A DNA stretch of 64,000 nucleotides, from contig OX419762.1 in NCBI GenBank assembly GCA_948567375.1, positions 27,161,465 through 27,225,464 on the forward strand, written 5' to 3'. The position numbers and the translations under genes were made by a program. The notes under the pieces are model-generated. The model was not told the DNA's origin, ran no database searches, and saw only the letters and a program-made list of their open reading frames with translations. This stretch comes from Lunularia cruciata (taxonomy: Eukaryota; Streptophyta; Marchantiopsida; Lunulariales; Lunulariaceae). Below are positions 2,386 through 39,945 of this stretch, in pieces (within the stretch, counting starts at the first letter, position 1; each line of letters opens with the position of its first letter).

Positions 2386-3404
2386 ATGGTGAAACTTCCG
2401 ATTTTCTTTGGCAAGGATGGGAAAGATGTGGAGGTCTTTCTGAAAGACTTAAAGACAGTTTGCATAGGGAAAAATGAGAGGAGGAAGAATGAGTGGGCCT
2501 CCTTCTTACCAGATTTATTTGAGGATGCAGCACTTACATGGTATGAGTTAGAATACCAAAAGAGAGAGGAGAGAGATGGGCAAGAAGAGTCTTGGGAGAG
2601 TTTGACTTCAACACTCATTGAGAATTTCCTTCTAGATGAGAGTTATGAGAGATTGATGAGTGAGGTTACCTTTCTCAAACAAGAAGATGGAGAGAAAGTG
2701 AGAGTCTATGTGGAAAGAGTGGAAAAGTTAGAGTCTAGATTTTGCAAAGTGTTGAGGAAGGTGGGGATGATGTGGAGACTACTATGATTGGCACAATGGC
2801 CATGCTCACCACAAATTTTGTGGGAGGATTGAGAACACAAATAAGAAGCAAGGTGAGATATGAGAAACCTTCTTCCAAGGTTGAAGTTATCAAGATTGCA
2901 ATTCGTATGGAGGAGAGTTTGGAAGGAGATGAGAGTGATTTGGTGGTGAAAGAGGCTGTGCATCCTCCTCAAGGTTACAAGTATGGTGGAACTTTTGATA
3001 CTTTGGTGGCAAGGGTTGCACCACAAGAAGTAGTTGCTCCAATTCTTGCAACTCCACCAAAGTATCCACTTCAAACCATCACAAAACAACTTGTAGATCT
3101 CAATATCAATGTGGTGCAACTATTGGAGAAAAGAGAGGTGGATCAAAATGTGAGGAGAGGACCTAGGAGTTATGGAAACTATCCATATAGAGGAGGCCAA
3201 CCAACCAACCATTTCAATGAGAGAAATTTCTTTGGTTTTGGAGGAAGAGGTCACATCCAAAAGAATTGCCCAAATTCCATTTACCATAGAGGAAAGGGTT
3301 ATGAAGGAGCCAATAGAGAGAAAGAAGGAGGTAATGAAACCCAAGTGACTCCTAATCCAAATAAAGATAAGGGGAAAGCATCTTTAGAAGTGGTTGAGAG
3401 TAAA
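2386..3404 (+). pseudogene. gag, family A copy 1
   Basis: The frame starts at the ATG of 2,386 with VKLPIFFGKDGKDVEVFL and continues through WYELEYQ and an ENFL-SYERLMSEV-FLKQ region, typical of a retrotransposon capsid. A frameshift near 2,755 moves the frame to GDDVETTMIGT. The nucleocapsid knuckle at about 3,223-3,270 reads NFFGFGGRGHIQKNCP. Both leading cysteines are replaced by phenylalanine, while copies 2 and 4 keep CFGCGGRGHIQRNC. The knuckle is therefore dead and the copy is a pseudogene. The end is lost at about 3,404. Confidence 0.8.
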
Positions 3405-3489
3405 AGAAATTCTTCCATACATAAGTAATGTGATCAAATCATTCAACATCCTGGTTGTAGTCTTGCCTCATACAATCATCAATTGCAAT

Positions 3490-4300
3490 AGTGGTAGAGT
3501 GGAGTGTATGGAATGGACTCAATTTGAATTTTGATATCATAGTAGGAGCCTACTTCCATGAGTTCATGGTTACATGAGGGTACGGACTGTTAGAGATTAG
3601 AGTGATCAATCAGTACCAAAGTAGAATAAAAAAATTTACTATCAAGAAAGAGTAGAAGATGATCAATTGACGAGGTACACACAAGAATTTGATCATATAA
3701 ATAAACACAGAAGAACCATTGATCATAACTATTTCATTTTGTAACATAGTATCGAGTCAATTTTACCCAATAGATGCCAATTTCAGGTCAATTAAAAAAT
3801 TGCACTCAAGCATTCCTAGACCTTGACAATGAAATTGCTAACCTTGGTGTGAAATCAAGCTAGGACTTGGAAGGGTTATGATCAGTCACCCAAATTTAGT
3901 GGAATAGAGAAGAAGCAGATGGTAGATTGATTGCAACAGTGGCAATAGTATATGAAGTGGACTCAATTTGAATTTTGATATCGTAGTAGGAGCATGCTTC
4001 TATCAGTTCATGATTACATGAGGTTAGGGACTCTTAGAGATTAGAGTGATCAAATAATACCAAAGTAGAATCAAAGAATTGCAATCAAGAAAGAGAAGAT
4101 GATCAATTGATATGATATACACAAGAATTTGATCAGATAAACAAACATAGAAGAACCATTGATTGCAACTATCCATTTTGCAACATATTATAGATTCAAC
4201 TTTACCCAATAGATGCCAATTTGAGATTGATACAAAATTGCACTCAAGCATTCCCAAACCTTCACAAAAAAATTGATCTACTAACCTTGGTGTGAAATGA
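3490..4300. repeat. Imperfect tandem duplication, unit about 442 bp
   Basis: Two diverged direct copies lie at about 3,490-3,855 and 3,932-4,300. Shared blocks include ACTCAATTTGAATTTTGATAT (3,517 and 3,961), TTAGAGATTAGAGTGATCAA, ACACAAGAATTTGATCA, TTTACCCAATAGATGCC and CTAACCTTGGTGTGAAAT. The first copy contains TGTTAGAGATTAG at 3,588, which looks like a Copia-type LTR start, but no LTR end or paired LTR is evident. No protein is recognisable in either copy. Confidence 0.75.
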
Positions 4301-7564: not shown

Positions 7565-9047
7565 ATGGGGAAACTTCCGGTTTTCTTTGGCAAGGATGGA
7601 GAAGATGTGGAGGTCTTTGTGCAAGACTTCAAGAGAGCTTGCATAGGAAAGAATGAGAAGAGGAAAAATGAGTGGGCCTCATTATTACCAGATTTCTTTG
7701 AGGATGTAGCACTTACATGGTATGAGTTAGAATACCAAAAGAGAGGAGAGATAGGCAAGAAGAGTCTAGGGAGAGTTTGAATTTAGCACTCATTGAGAAC
7801 TTTCTTCCAAATGAGAGTTATGAGAGATTGATGAGTGAGGTTACCTTTCTCAAGCAAGAAAATGGAGAGAAAGTGAGAGTCTATGTGGAAAGAGTAGAAA
7901 AGTTAGAGTCAAGATTTCACATAGTGTTGAGGAAAGGTGGGGATGATGTGGAGACTACTATGATTGGCATAGGGGCCATGCTCACCAAGAATTTTGTGGG
8001 AGGGTTGAGACCACAAATAAGAAGCAAGGTGAGATATGAGAAACCTTCTTCCAAGGTTGAAGCTATCAAAATCGCAATTCGTATGGAGGAGAGTTTGGAA
8101 GGGGATGAGAGTGATTTAGTGGTGAAGGAGATTGTGCATCCTCCTCAAGGCTACAAGTATGGTGGAACTTCTAATACTTTGGTGGCCAAGTTTTGCACCA
8201 CAAGTAGTAGTTGCTCCAAGTCTTGCACCTCCACCAAAGGATCCACTTCAAACCATCACATAACAACTTGCAGATCTTAAAATCAATGTGCTGCAACTAT
8301 GGGAGAAGAGAGAGGTGGATCAGAATGTTGGGAGAGGGCATAGGAGTTATGGAAATTATCCATATAGAGGAGGCCAACCCGCCAACAATTTTGATGATAG
8401 AAATTGTTTTGGTTGTGGAGGAAGAGGCCATATCCAAAGAAATTGCCCAAATTCCACTTACCATGGAGGAAAGGGTTATGAGGGAGCCAATAGAAGGAAA
8501 GAGGGAGGTAGTGAAACCCATGTGACTCTTGATCCAGAAAAAGGTAAGGGGATAGCATCCATAGATGTGGTTGAGAGCAAGTATGAGAAGGGAGAGTGCT
8601 CAAAGTCCAAGGGTCTTAATTTGGATCTTTTGGCATAAGAGAAGAAGAGAGCTAATTTTGCAAAGGATCTATACTCTTCTCAAGGATTTACTCCTAGCCA
8701 AGATACTCCTATGTCTACTAGGAGCACTTGCACAAGCACTCCAACACCATCAACAACAAAGACTCTATTGGAGAAGTTGGGGATGGAGGACTTCTTGATC
8801 TCAAAGCAACAATGGAACTATAATGTCTTGGAGGATGTTGGTAGTCACAAGGCTAACATCCCAATGGGCCAATTGATTGCTTTGAACCCTACTATGAGAA
8901 AGGAGCTTAGAGATGGTTTGAGTTCTACAAGGAGCAAGAGGAAGAAGAAGGCAAAAGCTCCAATATCAATGGGGTTGGTGGATGCCAAGCCAACACCATG
9001 GGAGGCTTGTGAATATGCCTCCAAGATTGATGTGAGAGTGAATGGTC
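7565..9047 (+). pseudogene. gag and protease linker, family A copy 2
   Basis: The ATG at 7,565 opens GKLPVFFGKDGEDVEVFVQD; a frameshift near 7,770 moves to LALIENFLPNESYERLMSEV. Two more frameshifts near 8,190-8,290 precede the nucleocapsid region. The knuckle at about 8,402-8,446 is intact (CFGCGGRGHIQRNC). A TAA at 8,636-8,638 replaces a CAA that is intact in the 36-kb copy, a C-to-T change. The frame then runs through KLGMEDFLISKQQWNYNVLE to KIDVRVNG, where the inverted LTR begins. Confidence 0.8.
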
Positions 9048-9787: not shown

Positions 9788-10885
9788 CTACCTTCTATGG
9801 TACATCTTCAACTTATCATGGTTAATCCTATCATAGTGTTGTCCTCCCAACTCCTTGAGATCATAGGTGTAATTTCCCCACACCTTCTCCACTATGAAAG
9901 GTCCAAAGTACTTAGGCAAAAACTTCTTTTGCACTCTCTTAAATCGAATGGAATCAAACAACATTACCCAATCACCTTCTTTGAAAGGCTCCACTTTCTT
10001 CTTGCCTTGCCTCTTGTCATAGCTCTCCTTTTGTTTCCTTTGGGCTTGCTCTACTCAAACCATAGCAACTGCTCTTGCCTCTTCCAACTCCATGAGTTGA
10101 TCCTTCCTTGACTTCTCTACATCACCTCCTTGTGCTTTCTTCAATCTCTTATGAATGCTTTGGAAGGTAGGAAAATCAAAGTGAATAGGTAAGGTAGACT
10201 CAATACCATATACCAATTGAAATGGAGAATACCCGGTGGAATTCTTCATGGTTGTCCTATACTCCCACAAAATTGCATGAATCCTCTTGTCCCAATGATG
10301 TTTAGACTCCTCCATTTCTGCATCTTTGGCCAACATCATGCACAAGGTCTGATTGGTTCTCTTTGCCAAGCCATTGGAATTTGGCTTATAGGATGTAGTT
10401 ACTCTATGTGTGATAGAGAAATGTCGTAGCATGGCTGTAGTAATGAAATCTATTTCATAAAGAAAAATCTGCCCACTTCATCTTCATTCTTGTCCCCCAA
10501 TGGTCTAGCCTCAACCCACTTAGTAAGGTAATGAGTAACTACCACAATGTACCAATTGTTCCTTGGGGTTCTATTGAGAGGACCTACAAAATCAATTCCC
10601 CACTTCTCAAAAGGTCCTAACAATAGAATTGATCTAAGTGGTGGAGTAGATGTAGACTTTCTAGCAAAGCTTGACAAACAAGACAAGTTTTGCAATAATC
10701 AAGACAATCCTTGAAAATCCCTCTCCAATAGAAACCTGCATCTAGAATCTTGAAAGCAGTCACCTTTCTTACAAAGTGTCCTCCACACACTAAACCTTCA
10801 TGAAACTCCTTTATGAGTAGGATAGACTCTTCCTTACCTACTGCTCTTTGAAGTAGACCATCTGCTCCTTGGTGAAAAAGAATAT
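9788..10885 (-). pseudogene. Integrase, family A copy 3
   Basis: Minus-strand pieces give, in order: FHQGADGLLQRA and GLVCGGHF with YCKTCLVCQ (HHCC zinc finger, about 10,880-10,670); KWGIDFVGPLNRTPRN with the first catalytic Asp (about 10,590); KWVEARPL; then RHFSITHRVTTSYKPNSNG (about 10,430). The motif after NG reads LAKRTNQ, so the catalytic Glu of the usual AERTN is Lys here. The C-terminal part (9,994-9,788) reads YFGPFIVEKVWGNYTYDLKE. Frameshifts separate these pieces and the 5' end is cut by the 3.5-kb insertion, so this is a pseudogene. Confidence 0.85.
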
Positions 10886-13800
10886 TGTGGTGCCCACATT
10901 TTTTTGTTTTTTCCAAAATAAAGGAGAAGAAGTGTATAGAGAAGTCGTATTGCGTCTGTATGGCCAAAGAAGACAAAGAAAAGAGTCTTCGGGATGAAAC
11001 CCAAAGTAAAGTGACTTTGAGTCATAAGGCAAAGTACTTGGAAATGCCATGTCAGAGAGTTGGAATAAAGTTGGAATCGTGTTAAAATAGAGTTGGAATC
11101 GTGTTAGTGCGCAAGAGAGAAGTCGTAAGAGTGAAATCGAGAGAGAGTGAGAAAGTAGAAGAGATGGGAGGAGGAAAGAAGAACTCCGAATTTGCAGTGA
11201 GAAATCATGCAATTCAGAGGTTAGATGTGATAGCGAGGATCAAAGACTTAAGCCGACTTCGGATCACATTTCTGACATGGAATTGGAATGTAAGCTTTCC
11301 AAGATTCATGACAAAAATCATCAAGAGTAAGTGTCTCGATGGACCCGAGGAAGAAGGGAAGGGAGGAAATCCGGCTCGCTGGACAAAGTTGGATTGGAGA
11401 CTTGTACTCGAGAAGGAGGTAGGCTTGGAGCAGGGAGCCACATTCTTGGGGAAGGGAGAGATAGCTCAGGAGACTCAGGAGGTGAGAGACGCTTTCTCTT
11501 TGAAGAGAACGAAGAATGGGTATAAGGTTGAGAGTTACAAGGATCCAATGAAGAGAGGGATTGTGAGTGCTCTCATGGCAATCTTGAAGCCGGAGAGAAC
11601 AACTTATGTGATGAAACACCAAGCGGTGTTCTTCCATAAGTTGTTTGCAGGAGAACCTATTAATTGGGCAAGGTGCTTCCATGGGAGGACGAGACAGATG
11701 GTGTGGAATTTGCGGGATAAGTCGCCTCCACACTACATTGTACCATTTGCAGCACATTTCTACCTCGGGTTGAATTTGCTCAATTCGGCCAAGCGAAACA
11801 AAATGGTGTCTCACTTCCATCCCGACTTAAGAAGAGAAGTCAACGTAGAGGAACATCAGCAGGGTATTCTCCAAATCCAAAGCACGGATGATTACTACAC
11901 AAAGACAGGTAAGAGCGTGGAGATAGAAGCGAGTACTCCGATGACAAAGAAGAGAGGTCGGCAAGGTGAAGCCAAAGATATCAAGAAACCTTGGAAGACG
12001 AGGAGAGGCAACCCAAGGCAAGGAATGGTGGTAATTGAGTCGGAGGACAAAGACTCAAAAGGAGATGCCAAGCTCAAGACTGAAGACTCGGAACACAAAG
12101 AAGAGCCTGAGCTAACGCTGCAAAGTGAGGATATGAGTAGCGATAGTGATGAAGGGGGAGAAATGACATTAGCTCCATCGGCTAAAGAAGCAGAAGAAGA
12201 AGAAGTTCATACACAGTTGGAAGACAAAGTAGCTGTGCCTGAAGAAAAGAAGATCGCAGTACAGCGAGGAGTTCACTCAAGACGTAAGGCAAAGTGTGAA
12301 GCGGGGCCGAGTAAAGCAAAAGACAAGGTAAGCAAAAGCTCGAGAAGTGAGGCATCAATTCCAATATGAAGACTGCAAAGGAGAAGGCGAGTATTGGGTG
12401 AAGAAGAGGTAAGAAGGAAGATTTCTATGCCGGAAGAAGTAGGTGCAAGAAATGGAGTGGAGTACCTGCATGAAATCTTGTGTCCATTGTTGGTAAGGTT
12501 GGAGTACAAGAAGAGGGAGATGCAGTTGACATGTCCGGAGGTGACGACTGTGTTGCAGGTATTAGCGCGATTAGAAGAAGAGAACTCTGAGTTGAAGAAG
12601 AGTGTAACCCGAGGAGAGGAGGAAAGGGAAGTGCTGCGAGCATAGGCAGTGGTGAGAAGTCAGGTAATTGAAGACCTAAAGAGAGAGGTAAATTATCAAG
12701 AGGATCTTGTGAAGAAGAGTGACGTAGCAAGGGAGAGACAAGTAGCGGAGTATGAGATTTTGAAGCAACAGTTTGCTGATTCAAGAGTAGAAGTAATCCA
12801 TGCTATGGCGAGAATAGCTGCAAAGGATCAGGAGCTCGATAGAGTGATGGAGAGTGTTGAGGAGAAGAAGCAACTCTAGCAACAAGAGTTGGCGGCATGA
12901 TACAGAGAAGAAGACCAATTACGAGAGCTACTTCGTAATCAAGAGGAGAAGGTTGTCCAGAAAGAGAAGGAGAAGGAGTCGGTGAAAGCCGAGTTTGAGG
13001 AGGAGTTGGCAATGTATCAAGAGGACTGGCTTGCAGATCGGGTTCAAGAAAGGAAGACAAGATTGGAGCCGATAAAGGAGATTGTCCTCCAGATGAATGC
13101 AATGTTGAGTACAAAGGCCAGCGTTCAAATTGAAGAGACGAGACTGCACAAGTTGAAATTGTTGGTGCAGGAGACGAGGCAAAGACAGGCAAAAGACACT
13201 GATTTGAACACCTTGTTGATTAGTTTAAGGACTCGGGTAGACAGGAAGATTTTAGAAGTAGAGGATAACATTTCAATTAGATTAGACTTAGTGAAAATAG
13301 AGATAGAAAAGCTTTGGAAAGATGTTCAAGCAAAACCCAAAGTAAATAACGTAGGAGTACAAATGTCTTTGAAGTTACCGATGGAGACATTAGAGAAGAG
13401 TGGGTCGGGAGATAAGGAGTTAGATAGATTGCCCACTAGTGGAATTTCAGATCAAGAAAGAGAATTGTTGGATCTGGTAGAAGAATTAGAAGTTGTGAAA
13501 CCCGAAGACAGAGTAGTAGGAAGTAAGATTACTTCGGGTTCGGGTTTGAAAGCCAAAGAAGAAGTAGACATTGGATCGGATTAGTAATAGTTTTGATATT
13601 TGAAGAGGCAGATATGAAGAGGTTCATTGTCATTTTGGATCTGCAGGTTAGAAGAGTTGTTGTAGAACGATATAGTTGTTAATACTGTCAATTGATTGAC
13701 TACTTAAGAGTGGCATTTGTAGTCAAATGTTGTTCAGTGCTCATTATTTCTGAGAATAGATAAAGTGAAGTGCTATGAAGCAGTGCTCGTTGCTTGAGCT

Positions 13801-14380
13801 TGATTCTGAGTATCAACGTTATACTTGTGTTTATGAGTGTTTGGAGAAATTTGAAGTGCAAGTCAGAGTGCTTGTTGGATGTTGGATTCCACAGCCTTGA
13901 TCCTCATTCTGTGTGTTTGATCTAGAGTGAAGTGCAATCGAAGCAATGCCTTGACAGATCTGAGAGGAATTGTAGTGTTGGTAGTATTCTGCATTTGTAA
14001 GTGCAGTGCGAAGTTGATGTGAAGCAATTTTGATTGAGGAAGTTGTGCCTTCAGGGGAAGGGTGGAACACAATTTTGAGGCAAAGTTGTTTTGTAGTGAA
14101 GTGCCATTTTTGGAAGAGCCTGAATTCATCACAATCAAGATTGTTTGGAAAGATTTGATGGAGTTGTGATTAAGGAGTGTTAATTTGTGACAAGACTGCA
14201 AGTCAATGCTTGTTACTCTCTTTTGGGTGTGGTTTCTACCTGAGAGATTAAAGACGCAACCAAGAAGAACTACATTGTTACTGTTTGACTTTGTATTTGA
14301 ACATTTCTGACTCGTATCTCTGTGGGAACAAACTTTACTTACCTAATTACCGCAAACGTGATATTTGCCGGGTTGTCACA
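10886..14380 (+). mobile_element. 3,495-bp insertion with AATAT target duplication, unknown class
   Basis: The family A copy 3 polyprotein is interrupted between the RNase H linker and the integrase zinc finger. The same sequence is continuous in the copy at 38,785. The insertion starts TGTGGTGCCCACA (10,886) and ends GGGTTGTCACA (14,380). It is flanked by AATAT at 10,881-10,885 and 14,381-14,385, a perfect 5-bp duplication. The ends show TG...CA, and as inverted ends TGTG-GTGCCC and TGTGACAACCC they are weakly similar. I could not find an internal direct repeat of either end, so there are no LTRs. The insertion is CpG-richer than its host element and holds a single long ORF plus about 800 bases of 3' noncoding sequence. 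Confidence 0.8.
11164..13584 (+). pseudogene. Long single ORF of the insertion: plant transposon-like N-terminus plus coiled coil
   Basis: One frame of 807 codons runs from ATG 11,164 to TAG 13,582 with only four internal stops (12,367 TGA; 12,643 TAG; 12,877 TAG; 12,898 TGA) and no frameshift. Residues about 149-212 (HQAVFFHKLFAGEPINW, then IVPFAAHFYLGLNLL) resemble what is usually called putative plant transposon protein, found in large non-autonomous plant retroelements; this is from memory. An acidic, Ser/Glu-rich linker follows (residues about 290-360), then basic VHSRRKAK, then long charged heptad-like segments (about 410-720) predicted to be coiled coil. No RT, integrase or transposase triad is visible. 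All four stops are explicable as C-to-T changes (CAG to TAG or CGA to TGA). It could be a gag-like structural protein or a captured host gene. Confidence 0.65.
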
Positions 14381-14385
14381 AATAT

Positions 14386-16090
14386 CCCCCACCATTGTGT
14401 AAGGTCTAGATCTTGTTGCAAGGGCCTTCTTCTCCCTAGCATGCATCCGTTCTGGATAGTTACCTCTTGTCACAGAATCCACAATCTCCTTGTACTCCAT
14501 TGGAACCTCTTGAGTGATTGAGATTGTCATGAGCTCCTCATCCGGGAAGGAATCATCCACTGGCTCATCTCCATCATGATCATAGGCTCTAGATAACAAA
14601 TCAGCATTTGCATGTTTCTTTCCTGGCCTATCCTCAATGGTGTAGTCATACTCAGACAAGAGTATCATCCACCTTGCTAGTCTCCCTTCAACATTAGGCT
14701 TGTTGAAGATGTACTTCAAAGCCTTATGATCCGTGACAATGGTGGCTTTCCTTCCAATCAAGTAGTGTCTAAACTTCTTGAGACCAAAGATCACTGCCAA
14801 CCCTTCTCTCTCCATGACAGAGTAGTTCTTCTCTACAGAAACCATCTGCCTACTAGCATAAGCTATTGGATGATCATGCCCATCTTGGTCTAATTGACTA
14901 AGAGTGCATCCTATAGCTACATTAGAAGCATCAGTGTAGAAGATGAAAGGCTTACTCCAATCAGGTTTAGCAAGAATTGGAGTTACAACAAGGGATTGCT
15001 TGAGCTCCTCAAAAGCTTTGAGAGCCTTCTTGTCCTCTAAAATCACCATGTAATCTACACCCTTCTTCATGTAGATGGTCAATGCATAAGCCTTGTTGGA
15101 AAGTGAGAAAATGAAACTCCTATAGTATCCAACCATCCCCAAGAATTGGTGTCACTTTGTCAAGCTTGAAGGGAATGGAAGGTCTGAGATTTTCCTCACC
15201 TTCTCAAGATCAACTGCTATTCCATCCTTGGAGATGATTTGCCCCAAAAGTAGACCTTCTTCACATCCAAAAATGCACTTCTCTGGGTTGAGTGATGCAT
15301 TTGCCTCATCCAAGCATTGCAAGTCCTTGATTAGGTGCTCAAAGTGCTCCTCCTTACTCCCATAGACACAAAAGTCATCAATGAAGTCTCTCATAAATTT
15401 CCCAATGAAAGGTTCAAATACCTTGTTCATGAACCGTCAGAATGTGGCTTGGGCATTGCAAAGCCCAAAAAGCATGACCTTGAAAGTGTAAGATCCCCAA
15501 GGTGTGGTGAATGTGGTGAGTTGTTGATGCTTTGGTGCAATCTTGATTTGGTTATATCCACTATAACCATCTCCAAAATTGTACCTCTCATGACTTGTTA
15601 CCTCCTCCAAGATCTCATCAATGAATGGCAATGGGTAGTAGTCCTTCTTGGTAACAACATTGAGCTTCTTGTAATCCACACATACCCGAAGCTTGCCATT
15701 CTTTTTCTTCACAATGACAATTGGAGACACCCATTCTGAATTCTCTACCTCAAAGATAAATCCAGCCTCCTTGAGTTTATCAATCTCCTCCTTCACAACC
15801 AAAGATATTTGTGGGCTAATGCAACATTGTTTTTGGCGGATTGGTCTTGCAAGTGACTCCACCTCTAACTTGTGCTCCTCCAAGGTGACTTCCTTCAAAT
15901 CCTTGTAACTGAAAGCAAAAACATGGATGAACTTGCGGAAAATCTCCTCAAATCCCACCTTCTCCTCCTTGGTAACATTTGGGCCATACTTGAGGGTAGC
16001 TAACCTTCTCTCTACCTCCTCAAGTGTCAATGGTGATTTATCTGGGTCCTTCAAAACCTCTGGCTTAGTGCAAAATCTATAGCACACAAA
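14386..16090 (-). pseudogene. Reverse transcriptase and RNase H, family A copy 3
   Basis: A single minus-strand frame from 16,087 down to the insertion edge has only two stops (about 15,434 and 15,149). RT motifs in order: SPIVIVKKKNGKLRVCVDYK, KLNVVTKKDYYPLPFIDEIL, DGYSGYNQIKIAP, FGLCNAQATF and the catalytic box DFIDDF (about 15,380). RNase H follows: PFIFYTDASNVAIG, VMEREGLAVIFGLKKFRHYL, IVTDHKALKYIF and GKKHANADLLSR. The DGYSGYNQI form and the FIDD box match non-chromovirus Tat/Athila gypsy RTs. The frame is lost at the 3.5-kb insertion after the YTMV segment. Confidence 0.9.
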
Positions 16091-16760
16091 GGATACACAT
16101 CTAAATCAGATTTAGATTCATCCTCCTCCGTGGAAGTCTCCTCTTCCATGCTTGTGTCCACACCTGAAGCTCTTTCTTCAGAATCTGATTCTCAATAATC
16201 AGAAGATGGTGTATCTGAATGTGAAGTGTTGGTGGTATTAGTCACAGGAATTGTGACTCTATGGTTTGATGGCCCAATCCTCAAGTACACTTTGTGCCAT
16301 CAATCAATTGTGCGTGCTGCTCTCAACCATGGCCTCCCAAGAAGTAAGTCATAGCTTGAATCCTTCAAGACTTGGAAAGTCATGAGATTTTGAACTCCCA
16401 TAACTGAAACTACCACTTTATCCATCACCCCTACTAATCAAACTTGTTGCTTGTTTGCCATGCTCACCACAAATGTTGAAGGTCTTGAGGGTATCATACC
16501 CAACTTCTCATCAACCTTTCTGACATGGCATTTACTGCTGATCCTCCATCAACCAATGCATCCTTGATGTTATGACCATTCACTCTTACATCAATCTTGG
16601 AGGTATATTCACAAGCCTCCCATGGTGCTGACTTGGCATCCACCACCCCCATTGATACTAGAGCTTTGGCCTTCTTCTTCCTCTTGCTCCTTGTAGAACT
16701 CAAATCACCTCTAAGCTCCTTTCTCAAGGTAGGGTTCAAAGCAATCAATTGGCCCACTAT
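16091..16760 (-). pseudogene. Protease and gag-protease linker, family A copy 3
   Basis: On the minus strand, LIALNPTLRKELRG and KIDVRVNGHNIKDA lead into ALVDGGSAVNAMSERLM, the retropepsin active-site segment (about 16,500-16,560); DGG replaces the common DSG/DTG. The rest of the protease and the acidic linker to RT (16,490-16,091) are degraded by stops and frameshifts. A solo LTR of another family cuts the frame at 16,761. The intact order is seen in the copy at 36,420-37,080. Confidence 0.8.
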
Positions 16761-17160
16761 TGTAAAAGACCAAAACCAAGGAGAGAAATAGGAGAATGGA
16801 AACTCACATTGGGACACTTGAATGAGAGAAAACTCCAAATGCCTAGCATGAGCTTTGGCTTTGGTATTTATAGGTAACATACAAGGCCCTTGAGAAGCTT
16901 ATCAAGAAGCTTCCTCAAGCCGCTTTCTTAGAGTGCAAGCCAAGTTAACTAGGAAGCTTCTCAAGAAGCTTCCTTTTAGAAGCCGCCTACTTGGTGTGCA
17001 AGCTAAGCTAGTTGGAAGCTTCTAGAAGCTACTTACTTAAGGTGCAAGCTAAGCTAACCGGGAAGCTTCCTAGATACTTCCAAAATATTCTAGGCTAATT
17101 TGTCTTATGTGCTACTTCGTGAGCCTGACTGACTTCATCGCTAAACTCCATATTGTTACA
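16761..17160 (-). repeat. Solo LTR, family H (heat-shock-element-like), copy 1
   Basis: This 400-bp block is TGTAAAAGACC...CATATTGTTACA on the plus strand. It is flanked by ACTAT (16,756-16,760) and ACTGT (17,161-17,165), a 5-bp duplication with one transition. The host gag sequence resumes in frame after it. Minus is the likely transcribed strand because TATAAATA lies there (16,872-16,865). Upstream of it are several GAAGCTTC units, including GAAGCTTCTAGAAGC near 17,015-17,030. No internal region is present, so this is a solo LTR. Confidence 0.85.
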
Positions 17161-27295: not shown

Positions 27296-27705
27296 TTTAA
27301 AAGATTGAGGAAAGAAATAGAAGAATGGAAGATCACATTGGGACTCTCAAATAAGTGAAACTCAAAATACCTAGCATGAGCTTGGACTTTGGTATTTATA
27401 GAAAATGTATAATACTCATGGGAAGTTCCCAAGGAAGTTTCCTACTAGAAGCCACCTTCTTGGAGTGAAAGCTAAGCTAGTTAGGAAGCTTCCTCCTATG
27501 AGCCGCCTACTTGGCATGCAAGCTAAGCTAACAAAGAAGCTTCCTCCTAGAAACTACCTCCTTGGCATACACATTACCGATACTTGGAAGGTACTAAGAA
27601 TTTTCCTAGATGCTTCCAAAACATTATTAAACTGTTTGGCTCATTTGGCCTATTTGCTAACTTGTTAGCCTTTATTAACTTGTTTTCTAACTCCATATTG
27701 TTACA
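27296..27705 (-). repeat. Solo LTR, family H, copy 2
   Basis: This 410-bp block is flanked by a perfect 5-bp duplication, ATAAT (27,291-27,295 and 27,706-27,710). Its plus-strand ends are TTTAAAAGATT and CATATTGTTACA, so the first bases have drifted from TGTAAAAGACC. The minus strand has TATAAATA at 27,400-27,393 and GAAGCTTC units (for example AGGAAGCTTCCTCC near 27,484). It matches the copies at 16,761 and 31,817. No coding sequence is present. Confidence 0.85.
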
Positions 27706-31816: not shown

Positions 31817-32286
31817 TGTAAAAGACCAAGACCAAGGAGAGGAATAGGAGAATAGAAACTCACATTGGGACACTTGAATGAGGGAAAACTCCAAATGCCT
31901 AGCATGAGCTTTGCCTTTGGTATTTATTAGTAGCATACAAGGCCCTTGAGAAGCTTCTCAAGAAGCTTCCTCAAGCCACTTTATTAGAGTGCAAGCCAAG
32001 TTAACTAGGAAGTTTCTCAAGAAGCTACCTTCTAGAAGCCGCTTACTTGACGTGTAAGCTAAGCTAGTTGGAAGCTTCTAGAAGCTTCCTTCTAGAAGCT
32101 TCCTTCTAGAAGCTTCCTTCTAGAAGCTTCCTTCTAGAAGCTACTTACTTGTGGTGCAAGCTAAGCTAGCCAGGAAGCTTCCCAAGAAGCTTCCTAGATA
32201 CTTCCAAAATATTCTAGGCTAATTTGTCTTATGTGCTACTTTGTAAGTCCAACTAACTTCATCCAACTAAACTCCATATTGTTACA
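31817..32286 (-). repeat. Solo LTR, family H, copy 3, with expanded heat-shock-like array
   Basis: This 470-bp LTR reads TGTAAAAGACC...ATTGTTACA on plus. It is flanked by TATTG (31,812-31,816) and CATTG (32,287-32,291). The paralogue at 54,770-54,785 shows the uninterrupted site CTCCTATGGATTGCACC, which confirms the insertion. The 14-bp unit TTCTAGAAGCTTCC is repeated about five times at 32,071-32,141. Each unit is a perfect three-box heat-shock element (TTCnnGAAnnTTC). The TATA box on the minus strand is drifted (AATAAATA at about 31,928). Confidence 0.9.
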
Positions 32287-37082: not shown

Positions 37083-38780
37083 GTGTATCTCTTGTGTGCT
37101 ATGGATTTTGCACCTAAGTCAAAAGTTTTGAAGGACCCAGATAAATCACCATTGACACTTGAGGAGATAGAGAGGAGGTTATCTACCCTCAAGTATGGTC
37201 CAAATGTTACCAAGGGGGAGAAGGTGAGATTTGAGGAGATTTTCCACAAGTTCATCCATGTGTTTGCTTTCAATTACAAGGATCTAAGGGAAGTCACCTT
37301 GGAGGAGCACAAGATAAAGGTGGAGTCACATGCAAGACCAATCCGCCAAAAGCAACATTGCATTAGCCCACCAATAGCTTTGGTTATGAAGGAGGAGATT
37401 GATAAGCTTTAGGAGGCTGGATTTATCTTTGAGGTGGAGAATTCAAAATGTGTGTCTCCAATTGTGATTGTGAAGAAAAAATGGCAAGCTTTGGGTGTGT
37501 GTGGATTACAAGAAGCTCAATGTTGTTACCAAGAAAGACTACTACCCATTACCATTCATTGATGAGATCTTGGAGGAGGTTGTAGGTCATGAGAAGTATA
37601 GTTTTGGAGATGGTTATAGTGGATGTAACCAAATCAAGATTGCACCAGAGCATCAACAACTCACCACATTCACCACACCTTGGGGAACTTATGCTTTCAA
37701 GGTCATGCCTTTTGGGCTTTACAATGCTCCAATCACATTCCAACAGTTCATGAACAAGGTATTTAAACCTTTCATTGGGAAATTTGTGAGAGACTTCATT
37801 GATGACTTTTGTGTCTATGGGAGCAAGGAGGAGCACTTTGAGCACCTAATCAAGGTCTTGTGATGCTTGGATGAGCAAATGCATCACTCAACCCAAAGAA
37901 GTGAATTTTTGGATGTGAAGAAGGTCTACTTTTGGGCCACATCATCTCCAAGGATGGAATAGCAGTTGGTCTTGAGAAGGTGAAGAAAATCTCAAACCTT
38001 CCATTCCCTTCAAGCTTGACAAAGTTACGCCAATTTTTGGGGATGGTTGGGTACTATAGGAGGTTCATCTTCTCATTTTCCAACAAGGCTTATGCATTGA
38101 CCATCTACATGAAGAAAGGTGTAGATTACATGGTGATTTTAGAAGACAAGGAGGCTCTTAAAGCTTTTGAGGAGCTCAAGCAATCCCTTGTTGTAGCTCC
38201 AATTCTTGCTAAACTTGATTGGAGTAAGTCCTTCATCCTCTATACTGATGCTTCCAATGTTGTATAGGATGCACCCTTAGTCAATTAGACCAAGATGGGC
38301 ATGATCATCCAATAGCTTATGCTAGTAGGCAAATGGTTTCAATAGAAAAGAACTACTCTATCACGGAGAGAGAAGGGTTTTGGCAGTGATCTTTGGTCTC
38401 AAGAAGTTTAGACACTACTTGATTGGAGGGAAAGCCACCATTGTCACAGATCACAAGGCTTTGAAGTATATCTTCATCAAGCCTAATGTGGAATGAAGGC
38501 TAGCAAGGTGGATGATACTCTCATATGAGTATGATTACACCATTGAGGATAGGCTAGGAAAGAAACATGCAAATGCTGATTTGTTATCTTGGGCCTATGA
38601 TCATCATGGAGATGAGCCATTGGATGATTCCTTCTTGGATGAGGAGCTCATGACAATCTTAGTCACTCAAGAGGTTCCAATGGAGTACAAGGAGATTGTG
38701 GATTTTGTGACAAGAGGTAACTATCCAGAAGGGATGCATGCTAGGGAGAGGAAGGCCCTTGCAACAAGATCTAGACCTTA
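37083..38780 (+). pseudogene. Reverse transcriptase and RNase H, family A copy 4
   Basis: The RT begins with the KDPDKSPLTLEEIERRLSTL region and continues with RPIRQKQHCISPPIA. A TAG at about 37,411 and a small frameshift near 37,480 break it. The palm reads VDYKKLNVVTKKDYYPLPFI, DGYSGCNQIKIAPEHQQ, FGLYNAPITFQQFMNKVF and DFIDDFCVYGSKEEH (37,792 onward). A shift at 37,862 and a deletion at 38,265 break the thumb and RNase H start (ILYTDASNVV). RNase H then shows IVTDHKAL and GKKHANADLLS. The active version would act in reverse transcription within virus-like particles. Confidence 0.9.
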
Positions 38781-39945
38781 CACAATGGTGGAATATATTC
38801 TTTTTCACCAAGGAGCAGATGGTCTACTTCAAAGAGCAATGGGTAAGGAAGAGTCCATCCTACTCATAAAGGAGTTTCATGAAGGTTTAGTGTGTGGAGG
38901 ACACTATGCAAGAAAGGTGACTGCTTTCAAGATTTTAGATGCAAGTTACCATTGGAGAGAGATTTTCAAGGATTGTCTTGATTATTGCAAAACTTTTCAT
39001 GTTTGTCAAGCTTTTGCTAGAAAGTATACTTCCACTCCACCACTTAGACCAATTCCATTGCTAAGACCTTTCAAGAAGTGGGGAATTGATTTTGTAGGTC
39101 CTCTCAATAGAACCCCAAGGAACAACCAATATATTGTGGTAGTTACTAATTATCTTACCAAGTGGGTTGAGGCTAGACCATTGAGGGACAAGAATGAAGA
39201 TGAAGTTGGGAGATTTCTTTATGAGCGCATTATCACTAGGTTTGGGTACCCTTTGGAGTTAATTTCTGATAGAGTAGGAAAGTTTATAAGAAGCATTACT
39301 ACAGCCATGCTATGACATTTCTCTATCACACATAGAGTAACTACATCCTATAAGCCCAATTCCAATGGCTTGGCAGAGAGAATTAATTAGACCTTGTGCA
39401 TGATGTTGGCCAAAGATGCAGAAATGGAGGGTGCTAAACATCATTGGGATAAGAGGATTCATGCAATTTTGTGGGAGTATAGGACAACCATGAAGACTTC
39501 TACCGGAAATTCTCCATTTCAATTGGTATATGGTATTGAGTCTACCTTATCTATTCACTTTGATCTTCCTACCTTCCAAAGCATTCATAGGAGATTGAAG
39601 GTGATGCAAAGAAGTCAAGGAAGGATCAATTCATGGAATTGGAAGAGGCAAGAGCAGTTGCTATGGTTCGAGTGGAGCAAGCCCAAAGGAAAAAAAAGGA
39701 GAGCTATGACAAGAGGCAAGTTAAGAAGAAGGTGAGGCCTTTCAAAGAAGGTAATTGGGTAATGTTGTTTGATTCCATTCAATTCAAGAGAGTGCAAAAG
39801 AAGGTTTTGCCTAAGTACTTTGGACCTTTCATAGTGGAAAAGGTGTGGTGAAATTACACCTATGATGTCAAGGAGTTGGGAGGAAGATACTTTGATAGGA
39901 TTAACCATGATCAGTTGAAAATGTATCATAGAAAGTAGAGAGATC
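38781..39945 (+). pseudogene. Integrase, family A copy 4
   Basis: The zinc-binding start reads FHQGADGLLQRA, HEGLVCGGHYARKVTAFKIL and YCKTFHVCQ; one finger Cys is Phe here. The catalytic core reads FKKWGIDFVGPLNRTPRNNQ (first Asp, 39,077-39,100) and PLELISDRVGKFIRS (second Asp). It then crosses a TGA at 39,313 into HRVTTSYKPNSNGLAERI (Glu retained) and a TAG at 39,388. The C-terminal part ends VLPKYFGPFIVEKVW and INHDQLKMYHRK. No chromodomain follows, in contrast to family C. Confidence 0.9.

Follow-up and report, generated by a model that had tools for sequence, protein, structure and literature searches.

The insert described here lies in a window of 64 kb, by which we mean the whole stretch of Lunularia cruciata DNA that was analysed. 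It is almost certainly a solo LTR from a Ty3/gypsy family with long LTRs, in which the LTR holds a gene that was under selection. As an object the insert is an ordinary solo LTR; the unusual part is the gene in the LTR of its family.

The insertion site and the host element were read as follows:
10881..10885, no strand: left target site duplication AATAT, read directly
10886..14380, plus strand: solo LTR of 3,495 bp, which starts TGTGGTGCCC and terminates GGGTTGTCACA, ends that are common to the genomic copies
14381..14385, no strand: right target site duplication AATAT, read directly
14339..15142, minus strand: RNase H part of the host gypsy pol, cut by the insertion; the last 42 bases of its open frame fall within the right end of the LTR
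38368..39014, plus strand: unbroken relative of the host gypsy element, identified by sequence alignment and representing the empty-site arrangement

A first-pass annotation of this DNA had placed the insert at 10,886-14,380 between perfect copies of AATAT, which is exact, and inside a gypsy polyprotein. The latter is confirmed for a polyprotein on the minus strand: the related copy in the same window (38,500-39,095) is uninterrupted across the insertion site and is 92.8% identical in an alignment of 601 columns. Within the 64-kb window the insert was found only once.

An LTR that was integrated by a retroviral-type integrase is recognised by TG...CA ends together with a 5-bp duplication. The annotation was right to suspect an integrase-type mechanism and a retrotransposon origin, as the TG...CA ends, the 5-bp duplications and the paired LTRs found elsewhere in the genome (see below) indicate.

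Two side observations concern the surroundings. A 183-bp inverted pair (8865-9047 and 16574-16756, 93% identity) flanks the host gypsy element that holds the insert; its orientation is unlike that of LTRs, which are expected to be direct. Short repeats with many AAGCTTCC-like palindromes occur at 16952-17059, 27421-27533 and 32008-32171, and sequence of locus L042 that resembles these units also matches loci L010, L012, L014, L021 and L027.

The genome (565.8 Mb in 74 contigs, seven of them of 60-85 Mb, with contig C8 at least 63.7 Mb; the window is on contig C12 of assembly G000) was searched with the insert. On the plastid contig, C74 (L037:1006-2469), rbcL appears moss-like, which suggests that the host may be a bryophyte. 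The search yielded at least 79 matches, from the best 36 of 14,212 first-look candidates. Ends were read in 21 copies: the window copy and 20 close relatives supplied by 20 ten-kb stretches around the best matches, which are not a random sample. The common ends for which a genome search had been proposed were found, the copies sharing a unit of approximately 3.78 kb with ends as in the window. Full-length copies were mostly 3.74-3.81 kb long, compared with 3,495 bp in the window.

The flanking 5-bp duplication was perfect in 8 of the 21 copies, all solo, and 4 of its 5 bases matched in 3 more; by chance a single such duplication is expected in about 1 case in 1,000. An identical PBS-like sequence followed two copies and a polypurine tract (PPT) preceded three, one of these with one mismatch. 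Five copies were truncated or showed neither the duplication nor PBS/PPT. LTR copies of the family were seen adjacent, head to head or nested at L012, L015, L022, L024 and L028.

Counting of end patterns over the whole genome gave 1,172 junctions of LTR and PBS, 1,364 junctions of PPT and LTR and 3,801 left ends of the LTR, each with no hit for the reversed-pattern control within the mismatches allowed. Subtraction of both kinds of junction from the left ends leaves approximately 1,265, a rough figure because the patterns differ in length and stringency. The right-end 23-mer was counted 9,400 times, far above the 3,801 left ends, and was set aside for this estimate of solo LTRs; the surplus suggests further families with an identical right end. 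Longer LTRs are reported to accompany more solo LTRs, according to the available text of PMC7251063, which cites Du et al. 2012.

Among the matches listed, at least 11 PBS junctions could be paired by hand with a PPT junction on the same strand, at a distance of 6.12-6.17 kb, and the LTRs were retrieved for four of these pairs. In L031/L032 both LTRs are 3,783 bp long and 97.6% identical, CCCAT is present on both sides and the whole measures approximately 13.7 kb. L029/L030 is bordered by GGTGG on both sides; its LTRs are 95.6% and 97.7% identical in two blocks, the 3' LTR being approximately 190 bp shorter. The LTRs of L033/L034 are 95.9% identical, the end of L034 being degraded. The fourth pair has a 5' LTR (L035) without its 5' half, and what remains of it matches at 96.8%.

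Profile searches of the interior gave matches to Retrotrans_gag (5.5e-10), zinc knuckle (7e-6), RVT_1 (1.3e-14), RNase H (5e-32) and rve (2.8e-10), read on separate open pieces of different copies (L009, L025 and L026). When the pieces of these copies are combined, the order is gag, then protease-RT-RNase H-integrase, with the aspartyl protease match (0.008) below its cut-off. The elements thus have the TG...CA ends, the 5-bp duplication and the paired direct LTRs with PBS and PPT of Ty3/gypsy elements; their PBS and RT motif may be of the Athila/Tat (OTA) kind. Since the same unit pairs around a gag-pol interior, the insert is the solo LTR of a gag-pol-encoding Ty3/gypsy family. The annotation had stated that the insert has no LTRs, which is literally correct, but because the insert is itself one LTR. 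Copies bearing LTRs, named beforehand as the sign of an ordinary truncated element, do occur, yet the entire insert is that LTR and its ends are common to the copies.

Two other readings of the unit, both raised in outline by the annotation, are addressed by the complete elements. One is an undescribed, Revolver-like class of non-autonomous, single-gene elements of approximately 3.8 kb moved by a gypsy integrase. It would account for the eight copies that stand alone with perfect duplications, and for a single gene in an insert in which no enzyme domain was found, an oddity that the annotation had spotted well. The same unit, however, makes up both termini of gag-pol elements that have a PBS, a PPT and an outer duplication, which makes such a class very improbable; it should have no LTR-flanked coding relatives, and paired LTRs around a coding interior were found. 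The other is a large retrotransposon derivative (LARD), which would have long LTRs, an interior with no coding capacity and mobilisation in trans. An LTR length of 3-5 kb is LARD-like, and the LTRs of barley LARDs are also regarded as solo LTRs in the available text of PMC2851119, but here the interior encodes gag, RT, RNase H and integrase instead of being non-coding, and the probability of a LARD is close to nil.

The solo LTR of the window goes back to an element of approximately 13.7 kb (two LTRs of approximately 3.78 kb and a gag-pol interior of 6.1-6.2 kb) that inserted into the older gypsy element and made the 5-bp duplication, as the duplication and the complete relatives show. Recombination between its two LTRs, the standard route to a solo LTR, would have removed the interior and one LTR. 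The window copy has also lost approximately 300 bp with the TATA-box region and gained stop codons, presumably afterwards. That it carries a deletion follows from the other copies being approximately 300 bp longer at query positions 170-200, which among the matches listed are crossed by the window's own match only. The features inside the LTR are:
11055..11085, plus strand: deletion junction with approximately 300 bp lost and a short repetitive filler; the lost part holds, in other copies, a TATA box at LTR position ~388
11164..13584, plus strand: remnant of the LTR-encoded gene, 806 codons, with stops at codons 402, 494, 572 and 579
13695..13715, plus strand: second TATA-like motif downstream of the gene, at LTR position ~3,105, a candidate genomic promoter with a putative function

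The gene is in the sense direction relative to gag-pol, and its frame lies inside both LTRs of L031/L032. The annotation had taken the frame for a single product of 806 residues; in the window copy it is not open, owing to its four in-frame stops. An alignment of 26 LTR rows was constructed from the window, 17 copies and 8 LTRs of paired elements, one row being partial; L015 and both L028 rows, which are not full length, were excluded. All 25 near-full-length rows contain in-frame stops, from 1 to 12 each, and the partial row none; frameshifting indels relative to the window frame are present in 18 of the 26. At each of 11 codons a stop is shared by 4-8 rows. Stops across the family are mostly of the C-to-T type, the commonest changes behind the 142 stops being CAG-to-TAG (44) and CGA-to-TGA (41). 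This pattern fits methylation decay, which can recur, and some stops may have been inherited. In part of the amplification, gene-dead copies may have been helped in trans.

At least one in-frame stop in every near-full-length row, and the lack of a known homologue, could be due to the frame being the passive remains of a gene that was captured or nested there, with no function in the element. The distribution of substitutions argues against this. Substitutions shared by at least two rows fell on codon positions 1/2/3 as 105/87/210 in the N-terminal half (chi-square p 3e-22) and as 119/96/202 in the C-terminal half (p 2e-15). Private substitutions, confined to one row, were distributed as 60/57/52 (p 0.71) and 73/55/54 (p 0.11), respectively, and those in the non-coding 5' and 3' flanks of the LTR had no codon phase. 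Because inherited substitutions are biased towards the third position and private ones are not, the LTR-encoded protein was under purifying selection. This is the pattern expected if the frame was constrained in propagating lineages and copies decayed freely after insertion.

Transversions taken alone gave 14/13/45 in the N-terminal half (p 4e-7) and, more weakly, 35/18/41 in the C-terminal half (p 0.007), so that the bias is not due solely to C-to-T changes driven by methylation. On a fixed nucleotide tree, a model that estimates kappa gave an omega of 0.49 for the gene; the 3' flank, treated as codons in two of its three frames, gave 0.87-0.88. The values obtained when kappa was set to 1 (0.32 for the gene and 0.58 for the flank) were discarded, as the flank exposed a bias of that codon model.

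Divergent relatives of 65-80% identity were compared in 12 alignments, after exclusion of those above 80% identity or with under approximately 100 compared gene columns per codon position. Mismatches were most frequent at the third position in 11 of the 12, for example 153/115/304 of 798 positions each; the exception was L009, short and decayed, with 32/26/32. A passive leftover is therefore quite unlikely, inherited substitutions being biased in both halves and the divergent relatives agreeing. These statistics identify the LTR gene as having been under purifying selection while the elements multiplied.

The placement of the gene within the LTR was examined with promoters, R and polyA sites assigned from motifs. 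A TATA motif is present at LTR 383-395 in 16 of the 17 other copies and absent from the window copy; the 23-mer containing it has 2,288 genomic occurrences when up to two mismatches are allowed. The start codon of the gene lies approximately 165 bp past this TATA box. The second TATA-like motif reads CTACTTAAG in the window and 5 other rows and CTATTTAA in 20 of the 26 rows, and the best conserved stretch of the LTR, 3,241-3,600, is located just past it (mean pairwise difference 0.048-0.073).

It is likely that the gene lies in U3 with its own upstream TATA box (~388), and that the motif near 3,105 starts the genomic RNA, which leaves approximately 650 bp for R-U5. A placement in R-U5, where the TATA box near 388 would start the genomic RNA and the gene would be the first cistron of a leader of approximately 3.3 kb before gag, is less probable. 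In its favour, that TATA box is where such a promoter is expected in 16 of 17 copies, the only TATAAA or TATATA motif to recur at one place across copies; the conserved motif near 3,105 and the best conserved stretch right after it speak for the U3 placement, and a long upstream ORF would hinder the translation of gag.

The product has an acidic linker, as the annotation had noted, and the gene, pieces from relatives included, has no match to a Pfam family above that family's cut-off. For two open pieces of the window frame no Pfam family was obtained at E<=1, and for the N-terminal 266 residues nothing at E<=10. Listings below cut-off for the gene pieces of relatives were QueC (0.72), ELL (0.022), YwqJ-deaminase (0.026) and TSP3_bac (0.054). 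The N-terminus, described earlier as similar to a putative plant transposon, has no Pfam support: the Transposase_32 profile (PF20167) had no match in the genome, its control likewise matching no genome, and Transposase_28 (PF04195) had five sub-threshold matches, of which the two examined were unrelated to the LTR. Kinship with these families is rejected as far as profiles reach, which leaves room for a homologue too distant for profiles.

The first 401 residues had no relative in IMG/VR contigs, and a 422-residue open piece had none among PDB sequences at E<=1. Structure prediction of the N-terminal domain from the single sequence, with no alignment, gave a mean pLDDT of 35.9, too low to be relied on. 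The long coiled coil of the annotation received modest support, from the open C-terminal stretch of the relative L031: the heptad periodicity of the best of nine overlapping 120-residue segments was matched by 4 of 1000 shuffles and was weaker or absent in the others.

On balance, we favour a plant Ty3/gypsy family with an accessory gene wholly in its LTR, whose solo LTRs would be promoter-bearing gene units and a supply of the protein in trans. The LTR protein, with its N-terminal domain, acidic linker and charged helical C-terminal half, would serve the element as an accessory factor. This is the weakest step of the proposal; such a role is probable by analogy with the one suggested for additional genes in other gypsy elements of plants. 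The gene may have come to lie in the LTR in a single step, when the polypurine tract, and with it the start of U3, moved to a point upstream of a former 3' accessory ORF, an origin that can be tested.

In the usual view, LTRs are regulatory DNA and solo LTRs are dead ends. With the gene in the LTR, every complete element has two copies of it, twice the gene dose, and a whole copy together with its promoter can survive in a solo LTR. A conserved gene in an LTR thus means that solo LTRs are able to preserve whole genes. If the proposal is true, recombination between LTRs, which normally leaves regulatory DNA only, leaves gene units with their own promoter, and solo LTRs are a standing supply of a trans-acting accessory protein.

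The insert resembles the solo LTRs of other plant long-LTR Ty3/gypsy elements in its TG...CA ends, its 5-bp duplication and the pairing of the same unit elsewhere with PBS and PPT, but differs from them by the conserved protein-coding gene in the LTR. LTR-encoded genes are known in animal retroviruses; sag of mouse mammary tumour virus is an accessory gene encoded in the LTR, although, the virus being an animal retrovirus, the analogy with the present gene is functional only. Our literature search, beyond which most subscription journals lay, found no plant description of an ORF or gene inside an LTR, only two animal papers. The phrase 'LTR contains an ORF' occurs in the available text of PMC9412291, and the accessible parts of PMC11963269 and PMC12582370 report none in an LTR.

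Among plant LTR retrotransposons, the additional ORFs (aORFs) covered in the available part of PMC7264820 include the env-like ORFs of Athila and Bagy2, gene23 of Grande, and those of RIRE2, Retand and PvRetro13. The present gene shares with them that it is an extra conserved gene besides gag-pol, with coding constraint across copies and no known enzyme. The same text places aORFs in the internal region, most of them between pol and the 3' LTR, whereas the frame described here is wholly inside the LTRs. PvRetro13 ORF2 is said there to hold an SMC domain, similar in flavour to the charged helical half of the LTR product, a resemblance by description. Rice Retrosat2 also combines very long LTRs (over 3.2 kb) with an extra ORF of unknown function; in the available text of PMC3485330 this ORF0 is upstream of the gag-pol ORF and is not described as lying in the LTR, in contrast to the present gene.

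Revolver of the Triticeae, according to the available text of PMC2851119, is a single-gene repeat of approximately 3 kb with ends resembling the LTRs of large retrotransposon derivatives. It differs in being class II-like, with introns and a product of 139 residues, compared with an LTR holding a gene of approximately 806 codons here. Repeats with a single gene that were presented as new classes of transposon may be solo LTRs that bear a gene, and the present case suggests that Revolver should be re-examined as one.
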